Shown in pieces: positions 9,052 to 17,877 of a stretch of DNA of 64,000 nt. The translations under genes were made by a program, and so were the position numbers. The stretch comes from Paracholeplasma morum (lineage in GTDB: Bacteria > Bacillota_I > Bacilli_A > Acholeplasmatales > UBA5453), in contig NZ_JAFBBG010000002.1 in NCBI RefSeq assembly GCF_016907055.1, positions 1 to 64,000 of the forward strand, written 5' to 3'. A model generated the notes under the pieces. That model saw only the letters and a list, made by a program, of their open reading frames with translations, was not told where the DNA came from and did not search any database. Positions within the stretch are counted from its first letter, which is position 1; each line of letters opens with the position of its first letter.

Positions 9052-12000
9052 TTAGTTGATAAACTCTCTATTCTCGATGATAAGTTGTGGTAATACTGCT
9101 ATCATTTCAAATTCGAGTGTTAAATCTACTTCAAGTGATATACGCTCAACTTTATGTGATTCTCTTGCTAAACGTTTTTTGTCTTCAGCCATAAACACAT
9201 CAAAGACTTCTTCGAATAATTCAGGATGATCAATGAATGGGTTACGGTTCTTTTGTGTACCGTAAATTACATTATTACGGTTAATTTCAAATGCATCTAC
9301 TGGATCTTCTAAATGCCAGCCTAATAAGACAGCCAAGTTACCCATGGTTCTAGCAGGTAAGTCAGAGGTTCTGCCAGATTGTGCAACAATCAGTTTGAAC
9401 CCATCATTACGATATCTTACCGCCATATACATAAGCATTCTCGCAATATCACCTTTGTCTAAATCTCCTGGGAAGAATCTGTTAGATCCTACTTCCCAAG
9501 CGGTTGTAGTCTTAATTGGTAAGTTGAAATAGTAGTTACTTCTTGTACTATTAGTCTTACTATTAGAGATTCTTAAGTGGTGCATGTCTGATACATATGG
9601 AGACGCTTTAGAGAATGATGATTGTGGCCATACGTGTTCTTTATTATAACCAGTAATCGATACGTGGTCATAAATCCCTAAGTAACCAGATCCACTAGGA
9701 TGTTTATCTGAAATCTCTAATACAGCGTTCGTTGATGAATACCCGATGCCTTTATAGTTACGAGAGATGATGCTTGTTAGAGTTTCCACTAACGTTACCC
9801 CAGTTAATCCTTGTGCATCCGAATAGTATGCAGAAAGAATAATACCTGTTGTGACATGAACATCAATCGTCCCTGAATAAATTACATCTGACCCATCATA
9901 GATTGAATAGCTTAATACAATTGAGATTGGTTCGTCTTGTTCGACAAGTACACCAGAGTTATTCATTACAGCTTGATTGCTTGATGTCCAAACAATTGCT
10001 AAACCAAATATAGGATCAACACTTAAAAGGTTTAAGCTAATTTGTGTTTCAATATAGTCCGCAAGTTTTAACCCTTCTAATACGGTTTCTTCAAATAGTA
10101 CTTTATCAAAACCATTGTTAATGGCTTTAGCTTCATCAGTGACTAATACTTTGTAAGTCCCTTCAACCTTAACGACAATACCTTTAAGAGTGACTGAATC
10201 ACCAAGCATATAGCCATCAAATGGATTTACATCAAGTTGATTGAATGACACAATGATTCCATCATTAACCACAACAGACAAATCGCCTGATTCAAAATCT
10301 TTATATACAATACCATTAAAGGTGACTAATTGTGATAATTGTGTAGATAGTGACTCTACAGTAGCTGGTTTTGTAGTTACTTGTCCAAGTGTTTTCTTCT
10401 CAATAGAAGAGACATTACTAACAAGGGCATTCGCCACACTACCTTTAATTAAATAGCTATAGCCGATTTCTAAGTTAGATAACTCAGAAAGCGGCAATTC
10501 AACTTCAATACCTTTGGATTGGTCTTGTAAGAAAGCTCTAATCTTTGACCCTTCAACTACGAAAGCCGAAAGGATACCACTGAATTTAACAGCACCTGCA
10601 GCATTAACCGCTTGGCTAACAGTGATTGGATCGCCTTCTCCAAGTGTTACTTCAACAATAATCGATTTAGATTCTGTCTTGTTAGTGAAGGTAACTAATA
10701 ATGCTACTTTTACTTGTCCGTTTGTTGGCATTGAGATTAGCCCTGTAGAAAGATCAATCAATAAATTATTTGGATCTGATTCTAGTGCATAATCATAAGT
10801 AATTTCTGATCCATTAGATCCAACACTTAAGAATTCGATTTGGCTTTCTTCCATAATTAATGAAGGGAAAACGAACTCTTTAATATCTTTTTGAATTGCA
10901 ATGCCTTCTTCTGTTAATGCTTTAGACTTGAATGTGATGTTATCTACAGTAACACGGAATCCTCCTGTGTTTCTAAGTTCAAATACGAACTCTCCAGTCA
11001 CATTTAAACCATCTATTACATAATCCACAGAACTTGAATCGACACCGATGATTTTAACCAGTTCATTGTTAACATAAACTGAAACTTCACGGAAATCACC
11101 TCCTGAGAATGCATGTTTCATTTGAAGTGTGATTTCTGTAACGCCGCCTTGAATAATCCCTTCAAGTTTAGCTGTTTTATCTGCACCAAATGTAAGGGCT
11201 AATCCGTCTAATGCTTGGTCGCTTCTCATATATTCAAAGCTCCATGCTGAGTTATTAACACCTACAAATACACCATACTTATAACTGGATCCAGTTGATG
11301 GAATTGTACTAAAGTTTTCTGTAAATTGATCCGCTGAATAAGTTTCTTCCACTGTAACAAGAATTCTTACAGTGGATAAGTTATCGCTAGAGTCTACTGC
11401 ACTATATGTGACTTCATAAACACCAGCTTTGGATAAGTCTAGTTTTGAATCATCTACTGTAACAACTACAGATCCGTCTACATCATCTAAAGCTGTAATC
11501 CCAGCCAATAGATTAACTGTAGCACCAACGCTTACAGTTAAGTTCTTAGCACCTTTAATTACTGGTGCGTTTTCATCTTCAACCACTACAGCTTCTACAG
11601 TAACAAATACTTTTATGGTTGCTTCATTTTTGCTAGAGTCTACTGCACTATATGTGACTTCATAAACACCAGCTTTGGATAAGTCTAGTTTTGAATCATC
11701 TACTGTAACAACTACAGATCCGTCTACATCATCTAAAGCTGTAATCCCAGCCAATAGATTAACTGTAGCACCAACGCTTACGGTTAAGTTCTTAGCACCT
11801 TTAATTACTGGTGCGATTTCATCTTCAACCACTACAGCTTCTACAGTAACAAATACTTTTATGGTTGCTTCATTTTTGCTAGAGTCTACTGCACTATATG
11901 TGACTTCATAAACACCAGCTTTGGATAGGTCTAGTTTTGAATCATCTACTGTAACAACTACAGATCCGTCTACATCATCTAAAGCAGAAACACCCTCTAA

Positions 12001-12444
12001 TAGATCAACTGTCGCGTCTACGGATACCGTTAAATCTTTAGCCCCAGTAATTACTGGCGCTACTTTATCTTCAACAATGATGTCTACTTTTTTAAGTATA
12101 GTAAAAGTAAAGTCTTTATCTAAAACTTTTTCCCCAATAGTAACTTTTGCTTTAATTGTCACAGACACATTTTCATCTGTTGGTTGCGTGATTTTAACTA
12201 AATTACTTTCAATTTTTGCAAAGGCTGTATTGCTAGACTCCCATTCTAGTTTTACACCTTGCCCTACAAATTCAGACACAGTTAATTCAATGTCTTTTGT
12301 GACGCCTTCTTTAGACTCGCCTTCAGCATAAGTCAAAGATAACTTGGAAAATACTTGTTCGTGTGTTACATTGATATTTTCGCCATTGCACGCATACAAA
12401 GCGAAAACAAAGAGTAACAATACAAACACTCTAAATAACTTCAT
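9052..12444 (-). CDS. Secreted multidomain lipoprotein with C-terminal endonuclease I domain
   Basis: An 1130-aa extracellular nuclease. A lipoprotein signal peptide ends LYAC (Cys19). Residues about 30-118 look like a bacterial Ig-like domain. Residues about 126-371 are three 82-residue Ig-like repeats (HYR/DUF5011 type, each with DDVDGSVVVTVD and AGVYEVTYSAVDSS). Residues about 380-510 form a beta-rich domain, and about 610-770 looks OB-like. The C-terminal part (about 900-1080) carries the endonuclease I (EndA/NucM/Bsn) signature YNKEHVWPQS and SDMHHLR, which gives the metal-binding catalytic His residues. Endonuclease I proteins cut DNA and RNA outside the cell; in a wall-less organism the likely role is nucleotide scavenging, with tdk and the purine permease nearby. 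The start has a good RBS (AGAGGAAAG). Confidence 0.9.
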   Translation of the reverse strand: MKLFRVFVLLLFVFALYACNGENINVTHEQVFSKLSLTYAEGESKEGVTKDIELTVSEFVGQGVKLEWESSNTAFAKIESNLVKITQPTDENVSVTIKAKVTIGEKVLDKDFTFTILKKVDIIVEDKVAPVITGAKDLTVSVDATVDLLEGVSALDDVDGSVVVTVDDSKLDLSKAGVYEVTYSAVDSSKNEATIKVFVTVEAVVVEDEIAPVIKGAKNLTVSVGATVNLLAGITALDDVDGSVVVTVDDSKLDLSKAGVYEVTYSAVDSSKNEATIKVFVTVEAVVVEDENAPVIKGAKNLTVSVGATVNLLAGITALDDVDGSVVVTVDDSKLDLSKAGVYEVTYSAVDSSDNLSTVRILVTVEETYSADQFTENFSTIPSTGSSYKYGVFVGVNNSAWSFEYMRSDQALDGLALTFGADKTAKLEGIIQGGVTEITLQMKHAFSGGDFREVSVYVNNELVKIIGVDSSSVDYVIDGLNVTGEFVFELRNTGGFRVTVDNITFKSKALTEEGIAIQKDIKEFVFPSLIMEESQIEFLSVGSNGSEITYDYALESDPNNLLIDLSTGLISMPTNGQVKVALLVTFTNKTESKSIIVEVTLGEGDPITVSQAVNAAGAVKFSGILSAFVVEGSKIRAFLQDQSKGIEVELPLSELSNLEIGYSYLIKGSVANALVSNVSSIEKKTLGQVTTKPATVESLSTQLSQLVTFNGIVYKDFESGDLSVVVNDGIIVSFNQLDVNPFDGYMLGDSVTLKGIVVKVEGTYKVLVTDEAKAINNGFDKVLFEETVLEGLKLADYIETQISLNLLSVDPIFGLAIVWTSSNQAVMNNSGVLVEQDEPISIVLSYSIYDGSDVIYSGTIDVHVTTGIILSAYYSDAQGLTGVTLVETLTSIISRNYKGIGYSSTNAVLEISDKHPSGSGYLGIYDHVSITGYNKEHVWPQSSFSKASPYVSDMHHLRISNSKTNSTRSNYYFNLPIKTTTAWEVGSNRFFPGDLDKGDIARMLMYMAVRYRNDGFKLIVAQSGRTSDLPARTMGNLAVLLGWHLEDPVDAFEINRNNVIYGTQKNRNPFIDHPELFEEVFDVFMAEDKKRLARESHKVERISLEVDLTLEFEMIAVLPQLIIENREFIN
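11380..12075 (-). repeat. Three tandem ~246-bp coding repeats in the nuclease gene
   Basis: Three in-frame copies with a period of 246 bp; the same string recurs at about 11432, 11678 and 11924. The two units nearest the 3' end of the gene differ by very few bases, while the unit nearest the 5' end is more diverged. Each encodes one 82-residue Ig-like domain. The near identity at DNA level suggests recent duplication or gene conversion and a likely source of copy-number change. Confidence 0.9.
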
Positions 12445-13956: not shown

Positions 13957-14742
13957 CTATAAGACCATCACAAGCATAGACACAAGCGTTGAAGATAACC
14001 CACTCAAAAAGTTAACAGCATCATTCGTAATCCAAGAAATCCCACTTGAAAGAACAACTTTCTCACCTTCTAGAAATGGTTTCTCTGTAATAATTCCTGA
14101 TTGAATCCCTCTATACTTAGCTTGAACGAGTGCCCCTAAATAACTGTCTACCAGACATCCTACAAATCCACCCAACGTAATGATAAGCGCGTAAAATAGC
14201 AATATCACAGATATTTCATTTGTGATTCCGTAGAAGGTAAAGAACACCAATCCAATAAACAGTGCACCAACAAATGATGCTAGAGTACCTAGTCTAGAAA
14301 CTGCGCCAGATATTCCTTTTTCAACTACTTTAAATGTAATGATCGAATAAGTCTTACCTTTAGATAGTATTCCTATTTCACTTGCCCAGGTATCTGCATT
14401 AGATGCTGCTACAGATATGACTGAAGCGATCATAAACATATCATTTTTGGTGATGTAGAAAATGATTGAAAACATAGAAGTGATTAAACTATTTGCAATC
14501 ACTTGAAGGGCATTTCTGCCTTTAGAATCCTTGTTATTACGTTCATGTATTTTCGTGATGATACTGGATGAAACAAAGAACATAATTAACGCAATCCAAA
14601 CAACAAACCCACCAAATGCGTAGATAACAGCACCTAAGATTGTAGCTGTAATCAAACCATCTATTGTGAGTGACTTTTTTAAATAAGCTAAAAACGCTAC
14701 AACCAAACTGATAATAATACCTATTATCACTGCTTCAAACAT
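13957..14742 (-). CDS. DUF92/VTE6-like membrane protein, possible prenyl-phosphate kinase
   Basis: A 261-aa integral membrane protein with about six or seven hydrophobic segments, matching the DUF92 (TIGR00297) family by pattern: SNADTWASEIG, SRLGTLASFVGALFIG and the C-terminal ITNDAVNFLSGL. The plant and cyanobacterial member VTE6 is reported to be a phytyl-phosphate kinase, converting a prenyl monophosphate to the diphosphate. It is last in the crt operon, 24 bp after a VTE5-like gene, which would supply the first phosphorylation. The kinase role here is inference from family and context; the prenyl substrate cannot be told from sequence. Confidence 0.75.
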   Translation of the reverse strand: MFEAVIIGIIISLVVAFLAYLKKSLTIDGLITATILGAVIYAFGGFVVWIALIMFFVSSSIITKIHERNNKDSKGRNALQVIANSLITSMFSIIFYITKNDMFMIASVISVAASNADTWASEIGILSKGKTYSIITFKVVEKGISGAVSRLGTLASFVGALFIGLVFFTFYGITNEISVILLFYALIITLGGFVGCLVDSYLGALVQAKYRGIQSGIITEKPFLEGEKVVLSSGISWITNDAVNFLSGLSSTLVSMLVMVL

Positions 14743-14766
14743 AAATACACCCCTTGTGATCCAAGA

Positions 14767-15444
14767 TCAAAATAATAACAATAAATAATACATCAGACTT
14801 GAAACTAATGGAACGGTTAGGTTATCTAAACCTTTAGGTGTAAATAACTCAACTGCGGTTGCAATAACAGCAATCGTTAATCCTACTAATAATGACATTG
14901 GTAAGTTCAAATGAATGAGTGAGATAAAAGTAACCACTACAAAAGTGACTACCAACATCGAAAGAGATCCTAAAATGGATTTGTCATTGACGATTTTGTA
15001 TTTGCCATACTTCTTACCGATTACAGCAGCAAGCCCATCGCCATAACCTAGTGTTAGAATCCCTACTGCGCCTACTAATACTAATATTGGAATATCGAAT
15101 CTGGCCAAATCGCTTTTTAGCCCAAATCCTATTAGTACTAAAATCACCAACGAAATCGGGAAATAAACAGTGCCTAAATTACCCTTACCACTACGTTCCA
15201 TGGATTTAATTAGGTTAGTCTTGTAAGAATAATAGTTTAACAGTACAAATGTTATTGGCGCAATCACGGCAATATACCATAAATCAAACGTAAACATGGC
15301 TAATATCCACCAATTGGACACGCCTATATGGATGAATTTTCTTGCGCCCTCATCAGCTAGTAACCCCTTCTTCTGTAATAGTGTAGATAACCCTATAACA
15401 AGAAACACTAATACATATGATAATCCTAATCCCAATAGATTCAT
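14767..15444 (-). CDS. Phytol/polyprenol kinase-like (VTE5/SEC59-type) membrane protein
   Basis: A 225-aa integral membrane protein of the CTP-dependent lipid-alcohol kinase group (VTE5 phytol kinase, dolichol kinase, DGK1), related to CdsA. The visible signatures are RKFIHIGVSNWW near residue 35, GTVYFPIS, GYGDGLAAVIGKKYGK (nucleotide and Mg2+ site, about 136-151) and the C-terminal ELFTPKGLDNLTVP. It begins 14 bp after the prenyl-synthase gene. It would phosphorylate a free prenyl alcohol such as farnesol or geranylgeraniol to the monophosphate. A CdsA-type cytidylyltransferase is less likely because the pattern and length fit the kinase branch. Confidence 0.8.
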   Translation of the reverse strand: MNLLGLGLSYVLVFLVIGLSTLLQKKGLLADEGARKFIHIGVSNWWILAMFTFDLWYIAVIAPITFVLLNYYSYKTNLIKSMERSGKGNLGTVYFPISLVILVLIGFGLKSDLARFDIPILVLVGAVGILTLGYGDGLAAVIGKKYGKYKIVNDKSILGSLSMLVVTFVVVTFISLIHLNLPMSLLVGLTIAVIATAVELFTPKGLDNLTVPLVSSLMYYLLLLF

Positions 15445-15458
15445 ATAGCCTCCATAAC

Positions 15459-16391
15459 TTATATCGTCTTTAAAAATGATTCGATGATCTCTTTTTTTCT
15501 TTCACTACTCGTTATGGCTCTTTTGGTGAATACATCGTAGTCGTTTTCTCTAATTACGTTAATGATTTCTTTATAAAGGAGGATGGCAAGTGAGAGTGGT
15601 ACTCTCGCATCCATCGGAAATAACACACAATCTTTTAAAGCATTATCGAAGTTTGTCTCAGCAATGAGTGCCAGTTTTTCAAACATACTAATAAATTCTT
15701 TATTTATTCTACCACTGATTAAATCACTTAGGGAGTAGTTTGCTTCTTCCATGGCTTTTCTCGGAATATAGACTCTGCCTTTTTTATAATCTTCCCCGAT
15801 ATCTCTTAAGATATTAGTGATTTGCATCGCATACCCAAGGTTGATTGAGAAGTCTTTCAGTGAATCTTGATTTTCATATGCTAAGATCGGTGTTAACATC
15901 AATCCTACTGTAGACGCTACGTGGTAACAATACATAAGTAAATCCTCTGTTGTTTCATAGCCTCTAAAGTCTAAATCCATCTTCTGACCTTTAATCATAT
16001 CCTTAAAAGGCTTATAATCAAACTTGTCGTAAAATGGCTTTGTGTGGCGATATAGACTTCGCCACATATAAGATTTCCTAATGTCTTTAATGATATAGAG
16101 TTCCAGTTCTCTTTCGAGTCTATGGATGCCTTCTAGATCTCTATGTTCATCTACTAAATCATCGGCAATCCTACAAAAAGTATAAACTGCATAAATGGCT
16201 TTTCGTTTCTTCTTTTCCTTTAGTTGAGAAAAAGCTTTATAAAATGTTTTTGAGTTCTTTTGAATCGATCTCTTACATCTAAAATCATCGATTAATGGTC
16301 TTATAAGAAAGTATATAACCACAAATAAAACGACACCTAGGATAATCCGGATTGACGCATTATTTTCTAATAGACTAAGGATGTTATTCAT
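15459..16391 (-). CDS. Phytoene/dehydrosqualene synthase family protein
   Basis: Head-to-head prenyl synthase that condenses two prenyl diphosphates (GGPP to phytoene, or FPP to dehydrosqualene). The two Asp-rich motifs are present: DDLVDEH near residue 72 and NILRDIGEDYKKGRVYIP near 190-207. At 310 aa it is slightly long because of a hydrophobic N-terminus (RIILGVVLFVVIYFLIRPL, about 14-32), which looks like a membrane anchor usually absent in this family. The start overlaps the desaturase gene by 8 bp. CrtB and CrtM cannot be separated by eye. Confidence 0.92.
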   Translation of the reverse strand: MNNILSLLENNASIRIILGVVLFVVIYFLIRPLIDDFRCKRSIQKNSKTFYKAFSQLKEKKKRKAIYAVYTFCRIADDLVDEHRDLEGIHRLERELELYIIKDIRKSYMWRSLYRHTKPFYDKFDYKPFKDMIKGQKMDLDFRGYETTEDLLMYCYHVASTVGLMLTPILAYENQDSLKDFSINLGYAMQITNILRDIGEDYKKGRVYIPRKAMEEANYSLSDLISGRINKEFISMFEKLALIAETNFDNALKDCVLFPMDARVPLSLAILLYKEIINVIRENDYDVFTKRAITSSERKKEIIESFLKTI

Positions 16392-17877
16392 TTGGTTTAT
16401 GGTCCTTTAAAATCTCTTTACATGCAAGTTGTGCACTGGCCAGTACAATTGGAACGCCTGCACCAGGGTGATTTGAACTGCCTGCAAAATAAAGGTTATC
16501 AATCGTTTTGAACTTATTTTGTGGTCTAAAATATACACTTTGAGTAAGTATTGGTTTTAGTCCGAAAGTTGCTGAATACTCTAAGTTGAATTTATAGTTG
16601 AATGTTTTTGGTGTAAATGTTTTTAGTACTTCAATATGGTCCTTAACGTCTTCAAATCCTTTGATTTTTTCAATCTTATTCAATACCAAGTTCTTATACG
16701 TTTCAACCTCATCGGTTGTCCATTCGCTTTTGCCTTTCTGCATATTAGGCACTGGCACTAAGACGTAAATAAGTTCCTTTCCATTAGGGGCAATCGTTGG
16801 ATCAATTTGAGATGGACTATACATGTAAAACGATGGATCCATCGGTAAAGTCCCATTATCAAGTTCGTCGATATTTCTCTTGAAATCTTCTGCAAATCTA
16901 ATGGAGTGAACATTGGTTTTGTATTTCTTATTAAGTCCTAAATACAGAATAAAGGATGAGGTAGAATACTTCATCGTATCGATTTTGCTTGTCTTATACT
17001 TGCCTTTTTTTGACTCATCTTTGATGAGGTTTTTCATCGCGTATGGGAAGTCTGCATTACATAATACAATCTCACCATATCTAGGTTTTCCATTGACCAA
17101 AACACCTGCAGTCTTATTTCCAACCAATAAAATCTCTTCAACTGGTGAGTTATAATTAATCACTCCACCCATTTCCAAAAATCTACGTTCTAAGGCTTTC
17201 GTCATTTGATACATACCACCTTTGATATACCAAACGCCATAAAGAAGTTCAATCATCGGAATGATGGTATAAATTGAAGGTCCAGAATAAGGAGATACGC
17301 CAATATATAACGTTTGAAATGATAAAGCTTGTCTTAGTTTTTCATCTTTGACAAACCTAGAAATCGAGGTGTATGCACTATTTAATGTCTTTAGTTTATA
17401 GGCTTGATATAACGACTTGGGATTAAAAAATCCCCAAGCGCTTCTGTATGATTTGTCTAAGAAGTGATTTTTTACACGTTGATAACGTTCATAAACACTG
17501 GATAAATAGTCTAAGTAGCCTTTGGTTTCTGCGGGACCAAACTGTTCAAGTTGTCTAATTAAGGAAGGTAATTCACTTGATATCTCTAGTTTAGTTCCAT
17601 CTGGATAATAAATTGTATTAAATGGGTTTAATAAGGACATGTCTAAATAGTCATTCGGATTCGCACCTGAATACTCAAAGACTTCTCTATAGAGCTCTGG
17701 CATCATAACAATCGTAGGACCGACATCAAATTGAAACCCTTTTTCTTCAATACGAAACATTCTTCCGCCAGGTTTTTCATTTTTCTCATAAATTTCAACA
17801 TCAAAACCATCTTTTAACAGACGAATCCCTGATGCTAATCCAGCAGTGCCAGCACCGACAATAATTACTTTTTTCAT
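16384..17877 (-). CDS. Phytoene desaturase family FAD protein (CrtI/CrtN type)
   Basis: FAD-dependent carotenoid desaturase that introduces conjugated double bonds into phytoene or dehydrosqualene at the membrane. The N-terminal dinucleotide motif VGAGTAGLASGIRL (residues 7-20) is followed by EKNEKPGGRM, and the C-terminal signature FAGSSNHPGAGVPIVLASA (about 465-483) is characteristic of CrtI-type enzymes. 497 aa is full length. It is first of four genes with tight spacing and has an AGGAGGG RBS. Acholeplasmas are known to make polyterpene carotenoids, which fits. The product cannot be read from sequence. Confidence 0.93.
   Translation of the reverse strand: MKKVIIVGAGTAGLASGIRLLKDGFDVEIYEKNEKPGGRMFRIEEKGFQFDVGPTIVMMPELYREVFEYSGANPNDYLDMSLLNPFNTIYYPDGTKLEISSELPSLIRQLEQFGPAETKGYLDYLSSVYERYQRVKNHFLDKSYRSAWGFFNPKSLYQAYKLKTLNSAYTSISRFVKDEKLRQALSFQTLYIGVSPYSGPSIYTIIPMIELLYGVWYIKGGMYQMTKALERRFLEMGGVINYNSPVEEILLVGNKTAGVLVNGKPRYGEIVLCNADFPYAMKNLIKDESKKGKYKTSKIDTMKYSTSSFILYLGLNKKYKTNVHSIRFAEDFKRNIDELDNGTLPMDPSFYMYSPSQIDPTIAPNGKELIYVLVPVPNMQKGKSEWTTDEVETYKNLVLNKIEKIKGFEDVKDHIEVLKTFTPKTFNYKFNLEYSATFGLKPILTQSVYFRPQNKFKTIDNLYFAGSSNHPGAGVPIVLASAQLACKEILKDHKPNE

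Follow-up and report, generated by a model that had tools for sequence, protein, structure and literature searches.

In plants and cyanobacteria, phytol is salvaged by the kinase pair VTE5/VTE6, which we consider here together with FOLK and PfPolK. A stretch of 64,000 nucleotides of Paracholeplasma morum (contig NZ_JAFBBG010000002.1, positions 1 to 64,000; this whole stretch is called the window below) contains a four-gene operon in which two putative membrane kinases of the same families follow a crtN-like and a crtM-like gene. The likeness is that of two successive membrane kinases leading from a free prenyl alcohol to its diphosphate, a putative conversion here, and it extends to an RKxxH clamp as proposed for PfPolK. 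The differences are several: the kinases of the window share an operon with crtN-crtM, they occur in non-photosynthetic bacteria with no chlorophyll to recycle, their product would be consumed by a C30 carotenoid synthase instead of tocopherol or phylloquinone synthesis, synthase for farnesyl diphosphate (FPP) is often lacking, and in Catonella morbi the two kinases are fused. We consider it probable that this operon works as a self-sufficient unit that salvages prenols, turns them into FPP and makes C30 carotenoids.

The carotenoid half of the operon resembles the CrtM-CrtN systems of Staphylococcus, Enterococcus, Planococcaceae and lactic acid bacteria: crtN and crtM are adjacent, the CrtN-like protein is 44-54% identical to CrtN-like desaturases of Bacillota, and the CrtM-like protein is close to dehydrosqualene synthases. 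In contrast, among the 80 loci retrieved with the CrtN protein for the wider linkage survey, those of Bacillales and Lactobacillales have no kinase pair near crtMN. Compared with Staphylococcus-type CrtM, the synthase of the window has an N-terminal membrane anchor, and its genome is without PF00348, the family of FPP and geranylgeranyl diphosphate (GGPP) synthases. Two-step phosphorylation of prenols has been measured in another prokaryote, Sulfolobus acidocaldarius, whose geranylgeraniol and geranylgeranyl-phosphate kinase activities are reviewed in PMC9782597; there they are activities only, with genes unassigned and no carotenoid link. Rickettsia parkeri is a bacterium without FPP synthase that scavenges isoprenoids from its host (PMC6854040), but the upstream genes of the methylerythritol phosphate (MEP) pathway are also lacking, and import of diphosphates by a transporter, with no alcohol phosphorylation, was proposed. 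The kinds of enzymes (VTE5, VTE6, FOLK, PolK and the archaeal activities) and C30 crtMN are thus already known. The open-licence literature searched contained no report of their being joined in one operon, of fused kinases, or of a lost FPP synthase coinciding with them; absence from it is not proof of novelty.

Gene identities and linkage were computed, as were the co-occurrence, the kinase fusion in relatives and the absence of PF00348 described below. The features are as follows:

16384-17877, minus strand: crtN-like gene, first of the operon; CrtI/CrtN-family carotenoid (probably 4,4'-diapophytoene) desaturase, 497 amino acids (aa); TIGR02734, GxGxxG
15459-16391, minus strand: crtM-like gene; squalene/phytoene-synthase family, probably dehydrosqualene (C30) synthase, 310 aa, with N-terminal transmembrane (TM) anchor; PF00494
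14767-15444, minus strand: VTE5/FOLK/PolK-like putative membrane prenol kinase (first phosphorylation), 225 aa; invariant motifs
13957-14742, minus strand: DUF92/VTE6-like putative membrane prenyl-phosphate kinase (second phosphorylation), 261 aa; PF01940
18008-18026, minus strand: terminator-like hairpin of the upstream NifS-like gene, 8-pair stem and T run; consensus match only

The first-pass annotation had described four closely spaced genes of the CrtI/N, CrtB/M, VTE5-like and VTE6-like types, and their coordinates, strand and identities were confirmed by TIGR02734, PF00494, PF01940 and conserved motifs. All are transcribed from the minus strand in the order crtN-crtM-VTE5-VTE6, with an 8-bp overlap between crtN and crtM and gaps of 14 bp (crtM/VTE5) and 24 bp (VTE5/VTE6). 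The hairpin of the NifS-like gene forms the upstream boundary of the operon and a thymidine kinase gene adjoins it downstream; promoter-like matches 5' of crtN were no more than expected by chance. The four genes are under purifying selection, with a ratio of nonsynonymous to synonymous rates (dN/dS) of about 0.05-0.12, dS being near saturation. The genome (1.556 Mb, 99.2% complete) belongs to the Acholeplasmataceae, and its nearest named relative by this locus is Paracholeplasma vituli (69% CrtN identity). If TGA were read as tryptophan, VTE5 and VTE6 would be joined in a single frame of 495 aa. In relatives the junction is a gap of 3-18 bp, an overlap, or out of frame. Because its length and frame differ in this way, TGA is an ordinary stop here, and read-through into a fused VTE5-VTE6 protein was ruled out.

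The CrtN-like protein reaches 446 bits with TIGR02734 crtI_fam (cut-off 238) and has the FAD-binding GxGxxG at its N terminus. The CrtM-like protein matches PF00494 (SQS_PSY; E 9e-59) and carries both Asp-rich motifs, ADDLVDE and DIGED. Its best PDB matches are CrtM 8is6 (E 1e-63) and the S. aureus dehydrosqualene synthase 2zco (E 4e-36), and 5iys, named "phytoene synthase", is also among the closest solved structures; with the cyanobacterial CrtB model it stays below the cut-off (192 bits against 550). In the alignment, the positions that we take to be F26 and W38 of S. aureus are kept and replaced by Tyr, respectively. Farnesol or geranylgeraniol had been suggested as the alcohol used. The C30-type relatives of both CrtN and CrtM favour a C15 over a C20 substrate, which makes farnesol likely and geranylgeraniol less so. 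The N-terminal TM helix (about residues 8-26, from hydropathy) is present in Paracholeplasma and in relatives of groups g14, g16 and g18, and is missing in g5, g6, g9 and the walled bacteria examined.

At E <= 0.001 the VTE5-like protein of the window matches nothing in Pfam or NCBIfam, and at E <= 1 nothing credible, although six of its 25 relatives match PF01148 (CTP_transf_1; best E 5e-5). An alignment of the 25 relatives gives the conserved motifs RKxxH, GYGDGxAA...K(S/T)xxG and E...DN...P, with R35-K36-x-x-H39, Y134-G135-D136-G137, K155, E199 and D207-N208 invariant. Beyond RKxxH, the core GDGxAA...K(S/T)xxG...DN is presumably a trait of the VTE5/FOLK/PolK family. In PfPolK, a farnesol/geranylgeraniol kinase using cytidine triphosphate (CTP), the residues Arg29, Lys30 and His33 of a proposed charged clamp have the same spacing as RKxxH (PMC10849223). 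From these motifs the protein is probably a prenol kinase, catalyzing the first phosphorylation.

The DUF92/VTE6-like protein is matched by PF01940 with E 1e-63 over profile positions 2-249 of 251, and scores below the cut-off of NCBIfam TIGR00297 (127 against 206 bits): it is a DUF92 member lying outside the TIGR00297 subgroup, an uncharacterised equivalog. The family search proposed in the first-pass annotation therefore succeeded for this protein, and found no curated family for its VTE5-like partner. The alignment of DUF92/VTE6-like proteins has 25 invariant columns. Prenyl-phosphate kinase is the known activity of the DUF92/VTE6 family, which is not known for phosphorylating diacylglycerol or undecaprenol, and the window protein probably has the same activity, adding the second phosphate. 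Both kinases contain a motif of the D-x-x-A-(x2)-(I/V)-G type; homology between the VTE5-like and DUF92 proteins was not significant by profile comparison. The confident AlphaFold model of the VTE5-like protein (predicted local distance difference test, pLDDT, 91) is an all-helical membrane protein, and its fold match of best probability is a weak one to the cytidine diphosphate-diacylglycerol (CDP-DAG) synthetase 4q2e (prob 0.87, E 0.19, TM-score about 0.3). For the DUF92/VTE6-like protein, whose model is likewise confident (pLDDT 91.5), the CDP-DAG synthetase structure 4q2g is a similarly weak counterpart (prob 0.85, E 0.08, TM-score about 0.3). A CdsA-type fold for both kinases is thus a hint and not a test. 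A CdsA-type identity had been put forward as the case against a prenol kinase; the weak likeness seen in this structure comparison does not refute one, because the CdsA-type fold and the prenol kinases are themselves related. When the VTE5 and DUF92 profiles were searched against the sequences of solved structures, nothing beyond chance matches came up. In a plasmid collection VTE5 had no match, and DUF92 a single one, in Thermomicrobium roseum, without annotated carotenoid neighbours.

For enzyme activities, C15 substrate, CTP use and origin of the alcohol we infer the following scheme. A free prenyl alcohol, most likely farnesol, would partition into the membrane, where the VTE5-like kinase would convert it to farnesyl phosphate using CTP. 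The DUF92/VTE6-like kinase would add the second phosphate to yield FPP. The membrane-anchored CrtM-like enzyme would take up FPP at the membrane and join two molecules head to head into dehydrosqualene, which the CrtN-like enzyme would desaturate to a pigment of the 4,4'-diaponeurosporene type.

The distribution of this gene arrangement was analyzed beyond the genus. Kinases lie beside crtN-crtM in Acholeplasmataceae loci, and also in a Tissierellales genome, Catonella morbi (Lachnospiraceae), a Peptostreptococcaceae and a Clostridiaceae genome, two Erysipelotrichaceae-type genomes, an Erysipelothrix-labelled genome, and one contig each labelled Petrotoga and Thermotogae. The four-gene arrangement, with its gene order kept, is found in other orders at 33-45% identity and is therefore well beyond chance. 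In two genomes, Catonella morbi (L062 8519-9970) and a Peptostreptococcaceae genome (L063 7246-8697), the two kinases form a single fused open reading frame of 483 aa. Pairwise distances of the four proteins are correlated (r 0.81-0.90, 20 loci), as would be expected of genes moving together.

Co-occurrence was examined by profile searches over 160 genomes of the order Acholeplasmatales; the corresponding Fisher P values ignore relatedness and are not to be read as probabilities. SQS_PSY is present in 26 genomes, DUF92 in 25 and PF00348 in 8, all 8 with SQS_PSY; strong matches to the VTE5 profile occur in the same 25 genomes as DUF92. PF00348 is missing in 18 of the 26 SQS_PSY genomes, and the kinase pair is found in 16 of these 18. 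Of the two others, G047 has a piece of VTE5 where a contig ends, and G096, which is 84% complete, lacks both kinases. When only high-quality SQS_PSY genomes are considered, the pair is present in 17/17 and PF00348 missing in 13/17. One genus, g18, has SQS_PSY without the pair, and PF00348 is present in 4 of its 5 genomes. Every carotenogenic genome but G096 hence has at least one plausible diphosphate route, G047 by way of its fragment. Given their linkage, the shared presence of the four genes counts in part as a single event; more telling is that PF00348, encoded by an unlinked gene, is absent. This family is absent from the genome of the window, where not even a loose threshold gave a candidate, from 12 relatives in the family and from P. 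vituli (an isolate), and was detected in 14 of 14 diverse control genomes. With no FPP/GGPP synthase found in this genome, the C15 diphosphate used for carotenoids would come mainly, or even entirely, from salvage.

The succession proposed in the first-pass annotation, from prenol to prenyl phosphate, prenyl diphosphate and carotenoid, is strengthened by these surveys: by the 25/25 co-occurrence of the kinases, their fusion in two genomes, the distant crtN-crtM linkage, and the missing PF00348 in the window's genome and in most crtM-bearing relatives. The module is not confined to wall-less bacteria, being present in other, distant bacteria.

The remaining isoprenoid genes were then considered. 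The genome of the window has dxr and ispG of the MEP pathway, so C5 units are made, and a uppS gene (C5:130414-131139; L204:6414-7139). UbiA was not found in it, and CrtM is therefore the only prenyl-diphosphate consumer identified besides UppS; for the same reason, a role of the kinases in feeding quinone or tocochromanol synthesis was rejected for this genome. In g5 genomes ispG is absent and 3-5 GHMP kinases are found, which is compatible with a mevalonate route.

Several observations weigh against salvage as the source of FPP. UppS is normally primed by FPP. It was detected in 114 of the 160 genomes, among them 108 without PF00348, of which 88 are also without the kinase pair; either these UppS enzymes differ from those of other bacteria or the order has an unseen FPP source. 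Four PF00348-positive g5 genomes retain both kinases though FPP can be made, with VTE5 relocated upstream of crtN. The g5 members G013 and G016 have no PF00348, which the four remaining SQS_PSY genomes of g5 do have, and combine intact crtM and kinases with a damaged crtN (residues 66-408 deleted in G013, a frameshift near residue 410 in G016). The pair is present without SQS_PSY in five genomes, PF00348 occurs in 6 of 9 module-bearing genomes checked outside the order, and the VTE5-like protein is without a match to any curated family.

Some of these data suit a different explanation, which we regard as unlikely: an unrecognised enzyme, either a divergent trans-synthase or UppS by a side activity, would make trans-FPP, and the kinases would be an auxiliary loop recycling farnesol. 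UppS and MEP genes in the window's genome, together with the 88 genomes, are in line with such an enzyme, but a synthase family recovered in all 14 controls and in 8 genomes of the order left no loose candidate here. Side activity of UppS is disfavoured: dimethylallyl diphosphate is not used by the UppS enzymes known from other bacteria (PMC12345219), and the products of UppS are cis. The four g5 genomes with both PF00348 and kinases are in keeping with a recycling loop, but recycling alone leaves unexplained the near-constant presence of the pair in PF00348-negative crtM genomes. It is still less probable that the kinases act on another lipid alcohol, such as diacylglycerol or undecaprenol, and adjoin crtN-crtM through a shared membrane-protection operon: no specific family was matched by the VTE5-like protein, a CdsA-like fold is common to several lipid kinases and cytidylyltransferases, and the pair adjoins photolyase and heliorhodopsin genes, not crtMN, in four genomes, but the DUF92/VTE6 family is known for a different role, a two-step pair fits a monophosphate-to-diphosphate conversion, the pair occurs in only 25 genomes against 114 for UppS, and it tracks SQS_PSY in 20 of the 25.

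Other neighbours of the kinases were noted. In four crtM-less genomes (L191:5114-10082, L192, L193 and L195) a class II photolyase gene comes after the VTE5-VTE6 pair, which is also adjoined by a divergent heliorhodopsin gene; beyond the latter, a tocopherol-cyclase-like gene is found in three of the four, where the contig reaches. The families were tested on L191, and the other three loci were read as homologous neighbours. A photolyase gene also lies 3' of the full crtN-crtM-VTE5-VTE6 set in G027 (L197:6692-8119), and a heliorhodopsin gene near VTE6 on the Erysipelothrix-labelled contig (L072:1-500). The last two hint at a possible light-protection link. Elsewhere in the window, positions 9052-12444 encode a protein of 1130 aa that combines bacterial Ig-like repeats with an endonuclease I domain (PF04231) at its C terminus; the start of the protein is lipoprotein-signal-like.

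The operon, read as a salvage module, provides gene-level candidates for both steps of prenol phosphorylation in many heterotrophic bacteria. The crtN-crtM context and the missing FPP synthase make this function testable by colour, and the kinase pair, including its natural fusions, is a candidate tool for channelling cheap prenols into terpenoid pathways. A broader reading, to which we give somewhat less than an even chance, is that the wall-less lineage kept the making of C5 units by the MEP pathway, lost FPP synthase, and obtains all its trans C15 diphosphate from scavenged prenols phosphorylated twice. If this is true, dependence on scavenging would be lineage-wide, and pigment synthesis would report the environmental supply of farnesol.

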